Shown: positions 7,643 to 59,942 of the stretch, one piece after another | How positions within the stretch are numbered: position 1 is the first letter of the stretch | Layout: each line of letters opens with the position of its first letter | Source of the DNA: a virus | Strand: one strand, 5' to 3' | Virus record (IMG/VR): IMGVR_UViG_3300028569_000031 | Coordinates: 1-64,000 of that record | DNA: 64,000 bases | Program-made: the position numbers and the translations under genes | Notes under the pieces: model-generated | The model's database searches: none | Told to the model about the DNA's origin: nothing | Seen by the model: the letters and a program-made list of their open reading frames with translations, nothing else

Positions 7643-7900
7643 TTACCAGTCAGCTTCTAGCTCAAGCTGATGCTTAAGCCATTTGATCAGATCCTTGTTA
7701 TTGGAGATGATCTTGTTAGCAACCATAATGAAAGGTTGCATGTTATCTGTACCTAAGTCCAGAAATGCTTCAAAAGCATTTAAGAATTCAAGTCGAAATT
7801 GTTCCAGTTCACGATCAACCAAAGGTCGGTGTTCACTGGAATCTCTGCGTGCCAGGAGTCTTAAATCCTGGAGCATGTTATACACAGCGGTGGTGGACAT
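7643..7900 (-). CDS. Hypothetical protein (85 aa)
   Basis: Start chosen at the ATG at 7900 (MSTTAVYNMLQDLRLLARRD), because the conserved TTCCTTTGCACCA leader box ends 5 bases before it, as for ssb; the upstream in-frame extension translates the leader. Helical throughout, with an acidic C-terminus ending HQLELEADW. No family recognised. Sharing a leader with ssb suggests expression at the same time as ssb. Confidence 0.6.
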   Translation of the reverse strand: MSTTAVYNMLQDLRLLARRDSSEHRPLVDRELEQFRLEFLNAFEAFLDLGTDNMQPFIMVANKIISNNKDLIKWLKHQLELEADW

Positions 7901-7907
7901 AACTGTG

Positions 7908-7984
7908 GTGCAAAGGAATAAACAGCATCCAAGACCAGGCTGTAATTGGCCAAAACGAAGCAGACTTAAATACAAAATTAAGTC
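7908..7984 (-). promoter_or_regulatory. Leader element plus ssb-like leader
   Basis: From upstream to downstream on the minus strand: GACTTAA-TTTTGTAT-TTAAGTC (7963-7984), then TGCTTCG, then the CAGCCTGG / GGATGCTG / ATTCCTTTGCAC block seen before ssb. This copy shows both conserved modules joined, so they probably form one leader. A further degenerate copy of the hairpin element is at 8106-8132. Confidence 0.55.
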
Positions 7985-8417
7985 ATTAAATAAATAAAAT
8001 ATTAAGGTGCAGGAAGATTAATTCTTGTTAGAATTAGATGCAGTTAAGAGAACTGTTTCTAAGGTTGTACTTGAGGTATACCCTTAGAAATAATTACCTA
8101 TTACTGAGTAGTATTAAATACAAAAATAAATTCCTGAATAAATACAAGTCTTATGCAACAAACGACTGTAGTTTAAAACAGGAATAAAGTAAGAAAAAAA
8201 ACACAAATAAAACACAAACAAAACAAAATAATTCATTTTAGTATTCCACAGCTCTTGCCGAAAATTTTTTAACGCGCCACCTTCCATCTGACGGTTTAGG
8301 TGAGAGTGACTGCGGTGGAAGGGATTTGAAGGGAGAATAAGGGTATATGGTGTATAAGTTAAGGTTTGGGGAGTATAACAGGGTATATCTGGGTTGTGAG
8401 GCCCGAAGGCCCCGTAT
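7985..8417. other. Non-coding control region
   Basis: No convincing gene in about 430 bases. It holds a 9-base-pair inverted repeat TTTCTAAGG (8056-8064) and CCTTAGAAA (8082-8090), a degenerate leader element at 8106-8132, a very A-rich stretch at 8160-8245, and a second inverted repeat around CCTTCCA and TGGAAGG at about 8281-8323. It lies near the switch from leftward to rightward transcription, so promoters or operators are likely here. Confidence 0.5.
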
Positions 8418-8576
8418 TTAGAAAGGAATTTCTGGTGAGTATGGTAACGGTGAGGACGGTAACTTTGGTCCGAGGCAGATATGTATCAGTTGGAAGTCTC
8501 CGTTTTCAAAATCATCGTTGTAATAAAAGTAATCGCCATTGATTAATACAATGTCAGCTGCACTGAAGTTAAACAT
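8418..8576 (-). CDS. Small acidic protein (52 aa)
   Basis: MFNFSAADIVLINGDYFYYN opening, acidic and aromatic, with a proline-rich end (LPSSPLPYSPEIPF). It is the most upstream leftward gene and is preceded by two copies of the GC(A/T)GC-type leader element at 8585 and 8636. No family recognised. Confidence 0.55.
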   Translation of the reverse strand: MFNFSAADIVLINGDYFYYNDDFENGDFQLIHICLGPKLPSSPLPYSPEIPF

Positions 8577-8584
8577 GATTTAAA

Positions 8585-8655
8585 CGCAGCAGGTGAACAC
8601 AAATCCTGCTATACCCTACTAACAAAACTATTAAGCGCAGCAAGTAAACACTCAC
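8585..8655 (-). promoter_or_regulatory. Leader element copies before first leftward gene
   Basis: Two diverged copies beginning CGCAGCA on the plus strand (8585 and 8636). The first contains the inverted repeat AGCAGG (8588-8593) and CCTGCT (8605-8610), another sequence-different but pairing-preserving version of the hairpin found at 5576, 6971 and 7956. Confidence 0.4.
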
Positions 8656-8830
8656 AACACAACACCTACCCTACCCAGAACTTCTTTTTTTGTCTCAGCT
8701 CGCTTCCTCTCGCTGTAGTTGTCTGATACCTGCCGGGATTTTTACCCCAAATAACAGTTTTTTAGGCGCCAATAGGGTTACAAGCATATTTATAGAGCTT
8801 AAAATCAGTAATATTGAAGAATTACATAAA

Positions 8831-17366: not shown

Positions 17367-18890
17367 ATGGCAGGTACATCCCTTTACTCCGTTTACCGAA
17401 GGACCGCACGTGCTGCAGCAAAACAACAGATAGTAAAAAAGAGTTCCAATATTGATATTGACCTGGCAAGAAAAGATTTTGCTTATTTTTGCACGGCAGT
17501 CGGTGAAAAACCACCGGCAACACACCACCTTCTTTGGCACCAGCACTTATGTACTGGAAATAGTTCGGAATGTTTAATCGATATAGCTGGCCCAAATGTA
17601 GATATACTAGGTCCCAGAGGTAGTGCAAAAAGTACAATTTTAGGTTTATTTACAGCGTGGACAATAGGTGTACATGCTTTAAACAAAAAACCGTTAAAAA
17701 TTCTTTATATTTCTTACACTGTTGATGTAGCCAGACCAAAGAGTGCTGCCATTAAAAGAATCATAGAAGAAAGTAAAACATATAAAGAAGTGTTCCCAAT
17801 GGTAAAAATTGCTAAGGGAATCAATAGTAATGAATACTGGAGTATTGATTGGAAGTTTGCTGGCATTAGATCTACCGGTGAAGAAGAATTTACTCTTTGC
17901 TGCGCTGGGTTAAAAGGTGCTGTAACCTCAAAACGTAGCCATTTATGTATAATAGATGACCCGATTAAGAGCTCTGACGACATTAAGAACAGAGATATCC
18001 GAGTAGCAATGGAAGATAACTGGAACTCAGTTATTACTCCTACAATGTTTGAAGGTGGACGTGCAATTTGTCTTGGTACTAGATTTCGACATGATGATGT
18101 TCACGCCAGTACTTTTACCCCAGGTAATGATTGGGTTCAAATTGTTCAGTCTGCAATAACGGTAGATGATCAAGGAGAAGAAGTTTCCTATTGGCCAGAA
18201 ATGTGGTCTCTTGAGTACCTACAAGACCGTCGTCGTCAGGCTCCTATAAGTTTCAGTTTTCAATATCAAAATCAAATTGTACAAACAAGTGAGCTATCAG
18301 TATCTCCAGATTTAATTGTTAAAGGTCAAATTGCTACTCAGTTTGATGCTTTAGGTATTGGTGTTGATTTATCTGCTGGGGTAAAGGAACGAAATGACTA
18401 TACTGTTTTTGTTATGGGCGGAAGGGTTGGCGACAAGATTCATATTATTGATTGCAAACGAATCAGGATTATGGGTAACCTAGAAAAATTAGAAGCGTTA
18501 ATGGAAATGATGTATGAGTGGGGAGTTGTTCACAAAGACGGAAAAGATTACCATCCTACTGGTAACACTATTGATGTATGGTCTGAAGCTGTAGCCTATC
18601 AAGCATCTTTAGAAGCTGATTTTAGAAGAATATGTCAAGGTGATCACGGACTGTATAACGTTAATTGGCATCCTGTTAAAGGATTTCGCGGAGACAAAGT
18701 AGCGCGTTTCAGGGGAATTATGGGTTTATTTGAACAACGTAAGCTAATCTTTAACAGGTACCGTAAATTTATGGCTTTAACCGATGAGATCGTAAATTTC
18801 GGTGTCAGTTCTCACGATGATTGTGTTGATGCTTTAATTTGGCTTTGTAATGGTTTAATGACCAGAGGAAAACTAGAGCTAGAGTATTGA
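17367..18890 (+). CDS. terL: Terminase large subunit
   Basis: 507 residues. The ATPase has a Walker A motif LGPRGSAKST (81-90), a Walker B with catalytic acid LCIIDDP (193-199), and a coupling-type segment ICLGTRFRHDD (234-244). The C-terminal RNase H-like nuclease opens with IGVDLSAG (Asp334) and closes with HDDCVDALIWL near residue 490. The enzyme pumps DNA into the procapsid through the portal and cuts the concatemer. It is followed by a small AbrB-like gene and the portal, the usual packaging order. Start at the ATG at 17367. Confidence 0.92.
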   Translation: MAGTSLYSVYRRTARAAAKQQIVKKSSNIDIDLARKDFAYFCTAVGEKPPATHHLLWHQHLCTGNSSECLIDIAGPNVDILGPRGSAKSTILGLFTAWTIGVHALNKKPLKILYISYTVDVARPKSAAIKRIIEESKTYKEVFPMVKIAKGINSNEYWSIDWKFAGIRSTGEEEFTLCCAGLKGAVTSKRSHLCIIDDPIKSSDDIKNRDIRVAMEDNWNSVITPTMFEGGRAICLGTRFRHDDVHASTFTPGNDWVQIVQSAITVDDQGEEVSYWPEMWSLEYLQDRRRQAPISFSFQYQNQIVQTSELSVSPDLIVKGQIATQFDALGIGVDLSAGVKERNDYTVFVMGGRVGDKIHIIDCKRIRIMGNLEKLEALMEMMYEWGVVHKDGKDYHPTGNTIDVWSEAVAYQASLEADFRRICQGDHGLYNVNWHPVKGFRGDKVARFRGIMGLFEQRKLIFNRYRKFMALTDEIVNFGVSSHDDCVDALIWLCNGLMTRGKLELEY

Positions 18891-19127: not shown

Positions 19128-21392
19128 ATGAGCGATAGCAAGTCAGCGTTAGATTCTATCCTCAAATCCGTTGTTAATCGAGACGGAGGTGGCTCTGCGG
19201 ACACCATGTTGGTGAATGCTCACCTTGCCCAGATGAAAATGTTTGGGATTCGTCAAGGCGTGGAATTTTATCCTGACCAGGATAATTTTGGTACACAGCG
19301 ATTTGATTTTGTTCAACAAGTAATTCGTTTTAATAAACTTGATGCAAGGTTGGATTCCATTTGGGATCGGTTCCTTTCATTTGGAAAAGGCTTATTCTAT
19401 ATAAGGCCTACTAAAAAAACTTATCGTTTATATTGGTTTGATAAAGATGCTTACCGTTCATACTACAGCGCCGATGGTGAACTAGAAGAAGTAGTAATTA
19501 TCTACCCTTATAAAGTAAAGTCGAATCGTGGTTTTTCCGGGGTAGGTTTATCAACAGATAAACGTTACATGAGATTAAGAATTACAGCAACTGAAATTGA
19601 AGAGTATCATAGCGAACAAGAATTAAATTTTGAGTCAACATTAGAGTTTGCAACGTTAGGAAAAAAGACAGTTGTAAACACAATGCAATTTATCCCTTGC
19701 GTTGAGGTTTTTAATAATCCAGATGCTTTTGGTACTGAGGGTAGTGGGGAATTTGAGTGGTTGAGTAATCAAATTATTGCTCACGATGAGATGGTAAAAA
19801 ATATCAGAGCTAATCTTTCTTTCTTTGGAAATCCAACTTTACTGTCTTCTCGCCCCAAACAAGACATTATTGAACAAAAAGATGGAGATGTTTCTCAAAG
19901 GCCAAGTATTGCAAGCCAATCTGGTTTCCAATCTGATTTTCCGCTTTCGAGTTCTACTTATCGCCAAGACAATGTAACCAGGCAAAATCCTGGATACATT
20001 GGAAAACCTGGCACTGGTATGCGGGTACCGCGTGTTATTGCAAACCTTGAGCCAACAGATCGTGTTGGTTTTATTACCCCTAATGCAATAAGCACTGACC
20101 AAGCAAGATACGCAGAACAGTTGAGATCTGAGATACGCCTAGCTCTTGGCGGTATTGACGACTTAAGTATTACAAACGTAACTGCTACTGAAATTAAATC
20201 AGCTTATGGTCGTGTAAGTGCGACAGCTAAGAAAAAATGTTTACAAATTTATACGTATGGAATTTGTAGATGTTTTGAATTAATGATTTTTCAAGAGGAG
20301 CAAATATTCAGAAAAACACTTGCTTTTAGTTCTGGCTTAAAATATCCTGATCCACCTGAAGATTTAGAAGATCCGAAACTTGAAGCAAAGTATGAGAAAG
20401 CAAAAGATAAGTATGAACAGGGTTTACAAGCTGCAATTGATAATGCAATACAAACAAAAACAATACCGCCAGGGGTCTTAGGTCTTGCTCCAGATGGGGA
20501 TAGAACTGTTTGTTGGCGATGGATGGGTCCTGTTTATGAAGACACCGCTCAAGATAAACTTAACCAATCTATCTTTACACGTAACCTACAGGAATTAGGT
20601 GTTGATAGCATTGAAGCACTGAAGTATTTGTTCCCTTCAAAAACGGACGACGAAATCGCAGGCATGCTCTCCGGTTTCCCGTTCCGCATGGTGGGTGAAG
20701 TACAGAGGGCGATGTCTACTTTCATTGACCTGGTTAACCAGCAAATGAGGACCCCGCATCCGCAGCAGCCGGATATACCGATGGCTGCGGACCCACGTCT
20801 TGATCTTACACCGTTCCTTTACCGAACTCTCGAAAGCCTACAAAAAGAGGTAACCTATGCAGGCCGATACCGCAATGCCGACCCAATCGGCACCCCAAGT
20901 ATCTCAGACCCAACCGATCAGCTACGCGGCTCCAGTTTCTCAAACAGCAGCCTACGCGCCAACGGTTTCAACAACGTCCCAATGGGTGGCGCCTTACCAG
21001 CAGGTAACGGCCCCAGCACCGCAAATGCAGGCCCAGATGGGCGTCCCCCAGACGCAATACAGCCCTACAGCGTCGTACCCCCAAGCTTACCAGGCGTCCC
21101 CACAATCGCCCCAGTCGGAGAATCCTTACAAGGAGGCATTCAACCGGGTAGTAGGACTCCTGAGTTCGCCGGTCCAATTCCCGTTCCAGGGTCAACAGTC
21201 TCAAACGAGCCCTCAGTACGCCCCGGCCAACTACAGTTCCCAAGCGGCTCCCCAGTACAGCAACGCGGGGACGCAGACCTATACGCCTGGGATCAACAGC
21301 AACCAGGGTTACTCCAACGGTTATTCCCAAACTTCTCAGGAACTGACCAGGGAGCAGCTCCAAGCAAACGGAGTAAGCGAAGCAAGTCTTAG
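19128..21392 (+). CDS. Portal protein
   Basis: 754 residues if read to its stop. The position after terL, the size and the central helices (SEIRLALGGIDDLSITNVTA, ATAKKKCLQIYTYGICRC) support a portal, the dodecameric DNA gate of the capsid. The length fits the large portals of P22-like and N4-like podoviruses. The core ends near residue 580 (LYRTLESLQKEVTYAGRYRN); the last 180 residues are proline/glycine/serine rich and coincide with another open frame from 20857. That tail may be disordered, or the true end may be altered by frameshifting. Confidence 0.75.
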   Translation: MSDSKSALDSILKSVVNRDGGGSADTMLVNAHLAQMKMFGIRQGVEFYPDQDNFGTQRFDFVQQVIRFNKLDARLDSIWDRFLSFGKGLFYIRPTKKTYRLYWFDKDAYRSYYSADGELEEVVIIYPYKVKSNRGFSGVGLSTDKRYMRLRITATEIEEYHSEQELNFESTLEFATLGKKTVVNTMQFIPCVEVFNNPDAFGTEGSGEFEWLSNQIIAHDEMVKNIRANLSFFGNPTLLSSRPKQDIIEQKDGDVSQRPSIASQSGFQSDFPLSSSTYRQDNVTRQNPGYIGKPGTGMRVPRVIANLEPTDRVGFITPNAISTDQARYAEQLRSEIRLALGGIDDLSITNVTATEIKSAYGRVSATAKKKCLQIYTYGICRCFELMIFQEEQIFRKTLAFSSGLKYPDPPEDLEDPKLEAKYEKAKDKYEQGLQAAIDNAIQTKTIPPGVLGLAPDGDRTVCWRWMGPVYEDTAQDKLNQSIFTRNLQELGVDSIEALKYLFPSKTDDEIAGMLSGFPFRMVGEVQRAMSTFIDLVNQQMRTPHPQQPDIPMAADPRLDLTPFLYRTLESLQKEVTYAGRYRNADPIGTPSISDPTDQLRGSSFSNSSLRANGFNNVPMGGALPAGNGPSTANAGPDGRPPDAIQPYSVVPPSLPGVPTIAPVGESLQGGIQPGSRTPEFAGPIPVPGSTVSNEPSVRPGQLQFPSGSPVQQRGDADLYAWDQQQPGLLQRLFPNFSGTDQGAAPSKRSKRSKS

Positions 21393-21864
21393 TGTAATTG
21401 ATCATTTTGGTGCTGATTGTCCAGCAATTCTTAATGATTATTCTTGCAAAATTGAAGACGCTCTTATTGTTACCAATAACCAGTTAATTCACGCAGTTAA
21501 TCTACTGAAAGAATTATCCGCTGAGCATAAAGCTTACGAGACAATTCTTACAGATCCTGATGTACTTGCTGATTATACTTGCGAGTTCTTCGGTGAAAAC
21601 GGTCCTTACCCTGTTCCCGATGAATCAGTTTCTTACAGCAGGCCTGTAGGTCAACAGTTTGTTAATCCAACTGTTGCTCCTCAGTATCAGCGTCCTGACA
21701 TGCCAGTTCCTCCTCAGCCTCAGCAAACACAAGGCAATCCAGCGGATTTCTGGAATAGTTTTGGTTCGTTGGCTGACCGTGATCCCGCTAATGCATGGCG
21801 CTATTTGAATGCAGCACAACAAAATCCTGATGTATTCCGCCAGAAACTCCTGGTAATGGAATGA
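20857..21864 (+). CDS. Scaffold-like protein overlapping portal gene
   Basis: 335 residues. The first 170 are low-complexity (Q, P, S, T, A, Y). The second half is a compact domain (LTREQLQANGVSEASLSVID, then CKIEDALIVTNNQLIHAVNL) followed by another proline/glutamine-rich tail. Disordered, helical and polar composition between portal and major capsid genes suits a scaffold or assembly protease substrate. The first 536 nt overlap the portal frame (+1). The unshared second half is clearly protein-like, so this frame is almost certainly used. The overlap region is unusually GC-rich. Confidence 0.7.
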   Translation: MQADTAMPTQSAPQVSQTQPISYAAPVSQTAAYAPTVSTTSQWVAPYQQVTAPAPQMQAQMGVPQTQYSPTASYPQAYQASPQSPQSENPYKEAFNRVVGLLSSPVQFPFQGQQSQTSPQYAPANYSSQAAPQYSNAGTQTYTPGINSNQGYSNGYSQTSQELTREQLQANGVSEASLSVIDHFGADCPAILNDYSCKIEDALIVTNNQLIHAVNLLKELSAEHKAYETILTDPDVLADYTCEFFGENGPYPVPDESVSYSRPVGQQFVNPTVAPQYQRPDMPVPPQPQQTQGNPADFWNSFGSLADRDPANAWRYLNAAQQNPDVFRQKLLVME

Positions 21865-21895: not shown

Positions 21896-21921
21896 GGGGT
21901 AGTAAATGCTACCCCTTTTTT
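21896..21921 (+). terminator. Rho-independent terminator
   Basis: GGGGTAG (21896-21902), loop TAAATG, CTACCCC (21909-21915), then six T. It lies 32 bases after the scaffold-like gene and separates the portal unit from the capsid unit. Confidence 0.9.
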
Positions 21922-21941
21922 ATTAAATATAGAGGCATAAA

Positions 21942-22852: not shown

Positions 22853-23995
22853 ATGTTTATCGATAACGACTTTCCCAAGCTGTTGGGCGCGGAGCTGTAC
22901 CGCCCCCACCCAGCGTATATCGTGGAGATGGCGGCTGAGCCCGTTGTGGTCCATGACTTCACAAAACAGCCAGGACAGACTGTGCAGCTGGACCGTTATC
23001 GTTTCTGGGGTAACCCTGGAACAAAGACCAGCCGCGAGCGTACCCAAGATCAAACTATCGGTACAGCTAGCAGCCGTGCAATCGTAAAAGACAAGGTTCT
23101 TGTTTCTTTGCGTGAGTACACTGGTCCTGCCGACCCTAACAATACAAACCTTCCCAGCACCTTCAAGATTGCTAGGGAAACCCTGATGACCGCTCAGCGT
23201 CTTCTTTTGGACTCCGGGAACCTTAATATGTTCCACCAGTCCATTGGTTCGTTGACACTTCTGGATGATTATCGTCGTTGGAGGGACCGCGTGTTCCTTG
23301 ACGAGATGGCGAAATCAGAATCCCGTGGCGCATCTGGCGACTCACAGGGCGGTTACTACTACCCCAACGGTAAGGCCAAGTCTTCTTCTACCGTACTTAG
23401 CTCTTATAGTGCTACCGAGTACGCTTCTGAGCGTTACAAGTTTAACGTAAAGACCGACCTTCTAGAGGTTGTTCGTCAATTGCGTAAGCGTAACGTTCCT
23501 GTATTCCAAGACGGTTACTATCGTTGTATTGCTGACCCTTCTTTCATGAAGGATCTGCGTGCTGATCAAGGCTTCCGTGAAATCGCCCGTTACCCAGGTA
23601 TGGGTCAAGGCAACCCTCTCATGGGTGCTGCTGGTCCTAACCAGGCAATTTATGGTGGTGGTCAATACGGCCAAGCAATGTTTGTTGCTGGTGAGCCCGT
23701 GATGCCTACCGGATTTGTATTTGAAGGAGTACGCTTCTTCGAGTCAACCAACTTTGCTGAAAAATCCATCACTTGTGATATTGGCGATGGTAGCGGTGCC
23801 ATTACCCACACCACTCCTCCAGGCCTATTCTTTGGTCCTCAGGCAGTAGGCGTTGGTATCGGTGGCCCTAACGCCCAGGTTCTTATTAACAACAACGATG
23901 ACTTTAGCCGTTTCATTATCTTGATCTGGCAACTGTACGCTGGTTTTGCTAATTTGAACAAGGACTTTATCACCTCTGCTTTCACCATTATTTGA
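22853..23995 (+). CDS. Major capsid protein
   Basis: 380 residues with the traits of a capsid subunit: no membrane segment, an early N-arm region (QPGQTVQLDRYRFWGNPGTK), a long helix (IARETLMTAQRLLLDSGNLN), and a beta-rich C-terminal half (CIADPSFMKDLRADQGF, VMPTGFVFEGVRFFESTNF). The pattern resembles N4 gp56-type HK97-fold capsid proteins, which is my best placement. GC-rich third positions compared with neighbours suggest codon use tuned to high expression. It has its own promoter and is followed by a probable decoration protein. Confidence 0.8.
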   Translation: MFIDNDFPKLLGAELYRPHPAYIVEMAAEPVVVHDFTKQPGQTVQLDRYRFWGNPGTKTSRERTQDQTIGTASSRAIVKDKVLVSLREYTGPADPNNTNLPSTFKIARETLMTAQRLLLDSGNLNMFHQSIGSLTLLDDYRRWRDRVFLDEMAKSESRGASGDSQGGYYYPNGKAKSSSTVLSSYSATEYASERYKFNVKTDLLEVVRQLRKRNVPVFQDGYYRCIADPSFMKDLRADQGFREIARYPGMGQGNPLMGAAGPNQAIYGGGQYGQAMFVAGEPVMPTGFVFEGVRFFESTNFAEKSITCDIGDGSGAITHTTPPGLFFGPQAVGVGIGGPNAQVLINNNDDFSRFIILIWQLYAGFANLNKDFITSAFTII

Positions 23996-59430: not shown

Positions 59431-59942
59431 TGGTTGATAACGATTTTCCTACCTCATATGCTAATTATGGGGATGTAGCTCAGGGAACGTCACCGGTTAA
59501 TGAGGATCTATATAACTGGATGCATAAAACATACGGCATAAAACCTGCGGAGTGGTATCGTAACAACCCAGATAAAAAACCAGGAGCAAATCCAATGCTT
59601 CCTAGAGGTGCTTATGTTCCTTTAGCCGAAGGCAGTACTGAGGGGAATGGGGCTGTTGGTTTTCTTCAACAATATGCACGTGGTGTTCAAGATTATAGTC
59701 AAGAGGGTACAGATATTCCTTCATTTAGTTTTGAGAATAAATATGCTCAGGAACAGGGCGGGCCTATAGCCAGGTCATTTAAAATTGGACCGAGAACTAT
59801 AGCGACTCCGATTGATGATGTACCGGTTAGGGGTAATTACTCTTTACCTTCCATAAACAAGCAAATCCAAAATGTAAATGAGTATCGAGGTGAGAGAGGC
59901 ATGGGACCAATAACTGCCGGACAATTCATGGGAGGGGTATGA
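59427..59942 (+). CDS. Hypothetical protein (171 aa)
   Basis: MMVDNDFPTSYANYGDVAQG start, proline/glycine-rich in the middle (KPGANPMLPRGAYVPLAEGS), with an ordered-looking part QEQGGPIARSFKIGPRTIAT. No family recognised. Overlapping genes on both sides (ATGA). Confidence 0.5.
   Translation: MMVDNDFPTSYANYGDVAQGTSPVNEDLYNWMHKTYGIKPAEWYRNNPDKKPGANPMLPRGAYVPLAEGSTEGNGAVGFLQQYARGVQDYSQEGTDIPSFSFENKYAQEQGGPIARSFKIGPRTIATPIDDVPVRGNYSLPSINKQIQNVNEYRGERGMGPITAGQFMGGV

Follow-up and report, generated by a model that had tools for sequence, protein, structure and literature searches.

The window analysed here is a 64,000-nt stretch (positions 1 to 64,000) of the 78,024-nt IMG/VR record IMGVR_UViG_3300028569_000031, a relative of the Synechococcus phage S-EIV1 (KJ410740). 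On its plus strand, an open reading frame of 754 amino acids at 19128-21392, the putative portal gene, shares its last 536 nt (20857-21392) with the beginning of a second plus-strand frame of 335 amino acids at 20857-21864, which we call scaffold-like and which lies in the +1 frame relative to the portal. Both frames, the length of the shared stretch and the +1 relation are exactly as claimed in an earlier sequence-only reading of this DNA. The GC-rich island that had been described around the overlap is present as well; G+C amounts to 0.53-0.61 in 200-base windows across ~20600-21400, compared with 0.33-0.45 in the sequence leading into the island and 0.36-0.41 directly beyond it.

Matches to PHROG families place TerL (17367-18890) before the portal gene and the major capsid protein (MCP) gene (22853-23995) after it. 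The portal gene, which directly follows TerL and ORF60, belongs to PHROG 20475, annotated as a "virion structural protein" in the head and packaging category. The AlphaFold model of its product has a mean pLDDT of 40, and every Foldseek match that it gives in the PDB at E ≤ 0.07 is to a phage portal (SaPI1/80alpha, T7 gp8, P-SCSP1u and A-1(L), the last two being from cyanophages). Because the model is of low confidence and the TM-scores are ~0.2-0.3, the support from the fold is moderate, and it is with moderate confidence that we regard the 754-residue product as a portal from the fold searches and the gene order. Its last 178 codons (20856-21389, plus strand) make up a C-terminal tail, recognized by alignment, composition, pLDDT values below 50 and the dual-frame selection described below. 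The tail is rich in Pro, Gly and Ser, has a pI of 9.2 with a basic end, and is predicted to be disordered; it carries two motifs, IPVPGST and QPGxLxxLFPN, that are conserved between groups of relatives.

The second protein fits the traits of a scaffold in that it is encoded between the portal and the MCP, is acidic (pI 4.4), and is predicted to consist of helical and disordered segments. Its N-terminal half, which is mostly the overlapped part, is rich in Pro, Gln, Ala and Ser and is predicted to be disordered, and the C-terminal half is predicted to be helical in an AlphaFold model with a mean pLDDT of 47. Within the overlapped half, alignment reveals the best-conserved block to be ENPYKEAFNRVVGLLSSPVQF (21118-21180, plus strand), a predicted short helix. 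The protein has no match in PHROG or Pfam, and its low-confidence model has no fold match in the PDB. Since no known family or solved fold was matched, the name "scaffold" reflects position, acidity and predicted helices. We infer that the protein is a scaffold, but it may not be, as two more small genes precede the MCP gene. Just after the scaffold-like gene lies a plus-strand hairpin followed by a T run that resembles an intrinsic terminator (21896-21923). This element is conserved in the group to which the window belongs but is absent from the S-EIV1 group; there, almost no space separates the scaffold-like gene from the next one.

Among 50,697 phage records searched, S-EIV1 is the sole relative of the window, and a capsid search beyond S-EIV1 yielded one extra match, which is weak and unconvincing. 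A sequence search of the PDB returned no homologue. We describe the family from 325 loci taken from IMG/VR, from GTDB contigs and from S-EIV1, 275 of which span both the start site and the overlap. These 275 loci contain 204 distinct overlap sequences that fall into three divergent groups: that of the window; that of S-EIV1, whose portal core is 57% identical to that of the window; and a third one, marine-looking for the most part and 72-79% identical to S-EIV1. Each of the 275 loci has both frames open across an overlap of 506-644 nt (554 nt in S-EIV1), and the phase is identical. The search brought up no relative that lacks the overlap. The two apparent exceptions are trivial: in L106 the portal stop lies nine bases before the end of the contig, and in L023 the scaffold frame ends early, at 231 amino acids, downstream of the overlap, which is either a sequencing error or a real truncation. 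Three contigs of the S-EIV1-like family (L163, L165 and L166) are found within metagenome-assembled genomes labelled Bacteroidetes and Puniceicoccaceae; these placements may be binning errors or may point to unrecognised hosts.

For the window sequence alone, two open frames could have arisen by chance and are not decisive. When the portal protein is held fixed and its codons are shuffled synonymously, the scaffold frame of the window stays open in 7-14% of trials, and in the reciprocal shuffle, with the scaffold protein fixed, the portal frame is still open in 0-2%. It is the 204 distinct homologous overlaps, from 275 loci that keep both frames open in the same phase, that put the overlap far beyond chance. 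As to which of the two frames is the older, codon usage gives the portal tail a slight edge and no more. A minus-strand ORF of 145 amino acids (20968-21405) also faces the overlap; it has no conservation support, with each reverse frame of the overlap averaging 2-12 stops across relatives, and because of these stops it most likely just reflects base composition.

The start of the scaffold-like gene is preceded by the signals expected for its own initiation. A Shine-Dalgarno-like AAGAGG (20845-20850, plus strand) stands before the ATG in the window and is replaced by AAGGAG in the S-EIV1 and marine groups, the upstream sequences being AAAAGAGGTAACC in the window group and AAAAGGAGATGAG in the other two. 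The ATG and the ribosome-binding site are kept in all 275 loci. Equally constant is a stop that closes the scaffold frame six bases ahead of the ATG; it is TAA in the window (20851-20853, plus strand) and TGA in the S-EIV1 and marine groups. The presence of this stop in every locus favours separate initiation and disfavours a frameshift from upstream. At the other end of the overlap, the portal stop shifts by ~90 nt relative to the scaffold frame between lineages, and its contexts vary by lineage as well (TCT-TGA, AAG-TGA, CGC-TGA, AAA-TAA and others).

S-EIV1, the only isolate among the relatives, shares with the window the gene order, the ATG, the Shine-Dalgarno sequence and the overlap, but the start given in its record differs. 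In KJ410740 the second gene begins at 59863, which is 23 nt past the portal stop and in frame within the real ORF. That ORF has 325 codons (7742-8719 in our S-EIV1 locus, L081), whereas the record gives 134 amino acids, so that 192 N-terminal codons are missing; because of the overlap, half of a structural gene was dropped from the record. The major capsid gene of S-EIV1 (9239-10465 in L081; 60784-62010 in S-EIV1) is also mis-annotated, with a minus-strand "hypothetical protein" placed over the initial portion and, on the correct strand, an annotation for just a C-terminal piece.

A frame-specific substitution analysis had been proposed in the sequence-only reading as a check on the overlap. 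We carried this out with 36 independent close pairs, in which isolated substitutions were classed by their effect (N or S) in each frame and stratified by mutation type. With the portal letter first, the rates per opportunity are 0.0013 for NN, 0.0104 for SN, 0.0237 for NS and 0.0815 for SS. Over the 36 pairs, the portal dNN/dSN in the overlap is 0.137 (95% interval 0.090-0.222) and the scaffold-like dNN/dNS is 0.067 (95% interval 0.046-0.097). The same ratios in non-coding control frames, taken from the portal core and from the unshared part of the scaffold-like gene, are 0.94-3.2. For both ratios, values below 1 are obtained in every third of the overlap in the combined sample, where the portal point estimate is ≤0.25, and in each clade alone for the whole overlap. 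Within the overlap, the synonymous rate of the portal frame drops by a factor of about ten; that of the scaffold frame is low there and recovers past the portal stop. This substitution pattern indicates that the portal and the scaffold-like protein are both under purifying selection in the overlap, and the 536 shared bases would thus carry two protein messages.

Three readings compete with two translated genes in one stretch. If the scaffold frame alone were real, the portal would functionally end near 20870 and its tail would be a chance open frame, a view to which the low complexity and predicted disorder of the tail, and the mobility of the portal stop between lineages, lend themselves. The sequence-only reading held that a portal stop near 20870 in relatives would mark the tail as a chance extension; such a stop occurs in 0 of the 275 spanning loci. 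The portal dNN/dSN, with its upper bound of 0.22 and its low estimate in every third, likewise speaks against a chance tail, as do the two tail motifs, which are shared between groups that are ~56% identical, and we consider this explanation very improbable. It is similarly hard to credit that the portal frame alone is real in the overlap and that the second protein begins past the portal stop. This is the arrangement in the S-EIV1 record, but it conflicts with the scaffold dNN/dNS of 0.07 (0.05-0.10) in the overlap, with the Shine-Dalgarno sequence and ATG at 20857 that all loci conserve, and with the block NPYKEAFNRVVGLLSSPVQFPFQGQ, which is conserved across groups within the stretch that such a protein would omit.

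A programmed +1 frameshift yielding a portal-scaffold fusion would also account for two open frames, and a long doubly open stretch is indeed seen in some frameshift systems. However, given the stop six bases ahead of the scaffold ATG in 275 of 275 loci, the shift would have to take place inside the overlap, and the contexts of the portal stop are not conserved. Slippery sequences near 20850 had been suggested as something to look for; no conserved site joins the portal frame to the scaffold frame. We give a fusion hardly any weight. The only widespread heptamer in the portal frame is CCCAAAC, with 88 occurrences in 106 sequences (21321-21332 in the window). In the window it encodes the PN of LFPN in the portal frame and SQTS in the other frame. 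Considered as a -1 site, it leads into a third frame that nearly always closes within ≤17 codons, with variable ends. Its recurrence is accounted for by coding in two frames, with no sign of frameshift use. Thus, of the three options offered in the sequence-only reading, the overlapping gene pair and the extended portal tail both stand, and the frameshift-produced fusion finds no support.

On the basis of these comparative data, we put the probability at roughly 0.93 that the locus represents a true overlapping gene pair, shared throughout the S-EIV1-like cyanophages, in which the second gene has an internal start and both products are selected. For such a pair, translation of the portal gene would run through to 21392 and give a portal with a flexible, basic C-terminal tail of 178 residues. 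Other ribosomes would initiate inside the portal gene, at the Shine-Dalgarno sequence and ATG (20857) of the scaffold-like gene, and reading in the +1 frame from 20857 to 21864 would give an acidic, partly helical protein of 335 residues in the scaffold position. The basic tail of the portal and the acidic scaffold may then cooperate in building the head; contact between the two during assembly is speculation on our part.

The substitution data also point to a further layer of constraint upstream of the overlap. The synonymous rate in the portal frame drops not at the scaffold ATG but ~260 nt before it, near 20590, and the portal-gene stretch at 20590-20856 (plus strand) is accordingly a candidate cis-acting control element. 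From ~20590 to the ATG, the synonymous rate is ~0.05-0.6 of that in the remaining portal core in all three groups, and all 15 of the synonymously invariant codons within 19128-20861 are found in 20595-20861. Within the stretch lies a 29-nt core, TTAGGTGTTGATAGCATTGAAGCACTGAA (20595-20623, plus strand), which hardly varies across the window and S-EIV1 groups and to which the marine group shows 0-6 mismatches. No comparable synonymous drop is seen in the other head genes (TerL, the small ORFs and the MCP gene). The MCP gene is only mildly reduced, so selection on codon usage alone is insufficient to explain the constrained stretch.

Searches for a recognizable signal gave the following picture. 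Predicted sigma-70 promoters upstream are fewer than in shuffles, with none at the 29-nt core, and no Rfam family is present in the constrained stretch. RNA folding gives a mean z near -3 against codon-preserving shuffles, whose shuffling blocks mix GC-poor and GC-rich codons, and ~-2 against dinucleotide shuffles, the latter being consistent in both clades only for -100 to +20. Covariation between the clades in the stretch is weak. Because the folding signals are moderate and change with the null model, and covariation is weak, we claim a constrained nucleic-acid element and no defined RNA fold. The element, at the RNA or the DNA level, probably sets expression of the scaffold. That 20590-20856 instead encodes or supports another product, either through a hidden ORF or through an in-frame internal start that yields a C-terminal portal protein, seems unlikely to us. 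Such a product would account for a synonymous rate near that of the overlap itself, and Met513 and Met521 in the portal frame are conserved; but none of the five other frames contains an ORF common to both clades, and inspection of the sequence upstream of the in-frame Met codons reveals no convincing ribosome-binding site.

Taken together, the locus may be a joint unit of the portal, the N-terminal half of the scaffold and a cis-element that sets the portal-to-scaffold ratio, in which the overlapped ends, a basic portal tail and an acidic scaffold arm, could be co-selected binding partners from which the procapsid nucleates at the portal vertex. This is a tentative proposal, and we hold it as somewhat short of an even bet. 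Long overlaps are considered largely dispensable for large tailed phages, and annotation pipelines cut them back. Here, more than 500 bases shared by two head-module genes persist throughout an abundant family of aquatic cyanobacterial phages. The constrained stretch upstream points to hidden control that may tune the ratio of portal to scaffold, and S-EIV1 with its Synechococcus host provides a testable system for two head proteins evolving in one sequence.

Overlapping genes as such are an already known kind of arrangement. Long overlapping genes occur in viruses such as phiX174, and the Rz/Rz1 pair is found in lambda-like phages. As in those cases, two selected frames share one stretch here, and the second has a separate start inside the upstream gene. 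In contrast to them, the present overlap runs tail to head over 506-644 nt and joins long genes of the head module in a tailed phage of 78-79 kb. For comparison, the median +1 overlap in virus reference genomes is 14 nt, with an interquartile range of 8-26 (PMC8903798), and the longest family-shared overlap in another survey, also from dsDNA phages, is 185 nt (PMC7017920). Our search of the openly accessible literature found no conserved overlap longer than 500 nt in which a portal gene and the next head gene are read in different frames. In lambda, the scaffold product Nu3 is nested in the C gene, being translated in the same frame from an internal start in this upstream head gene. The arrangement described here resembles C/Nu3 in that the putative scaffold gene begins at an internal start inside an upstream head gene, but it differs in that this gene is read in the +1 frame and its protein is unrelated in sequence to the portal.
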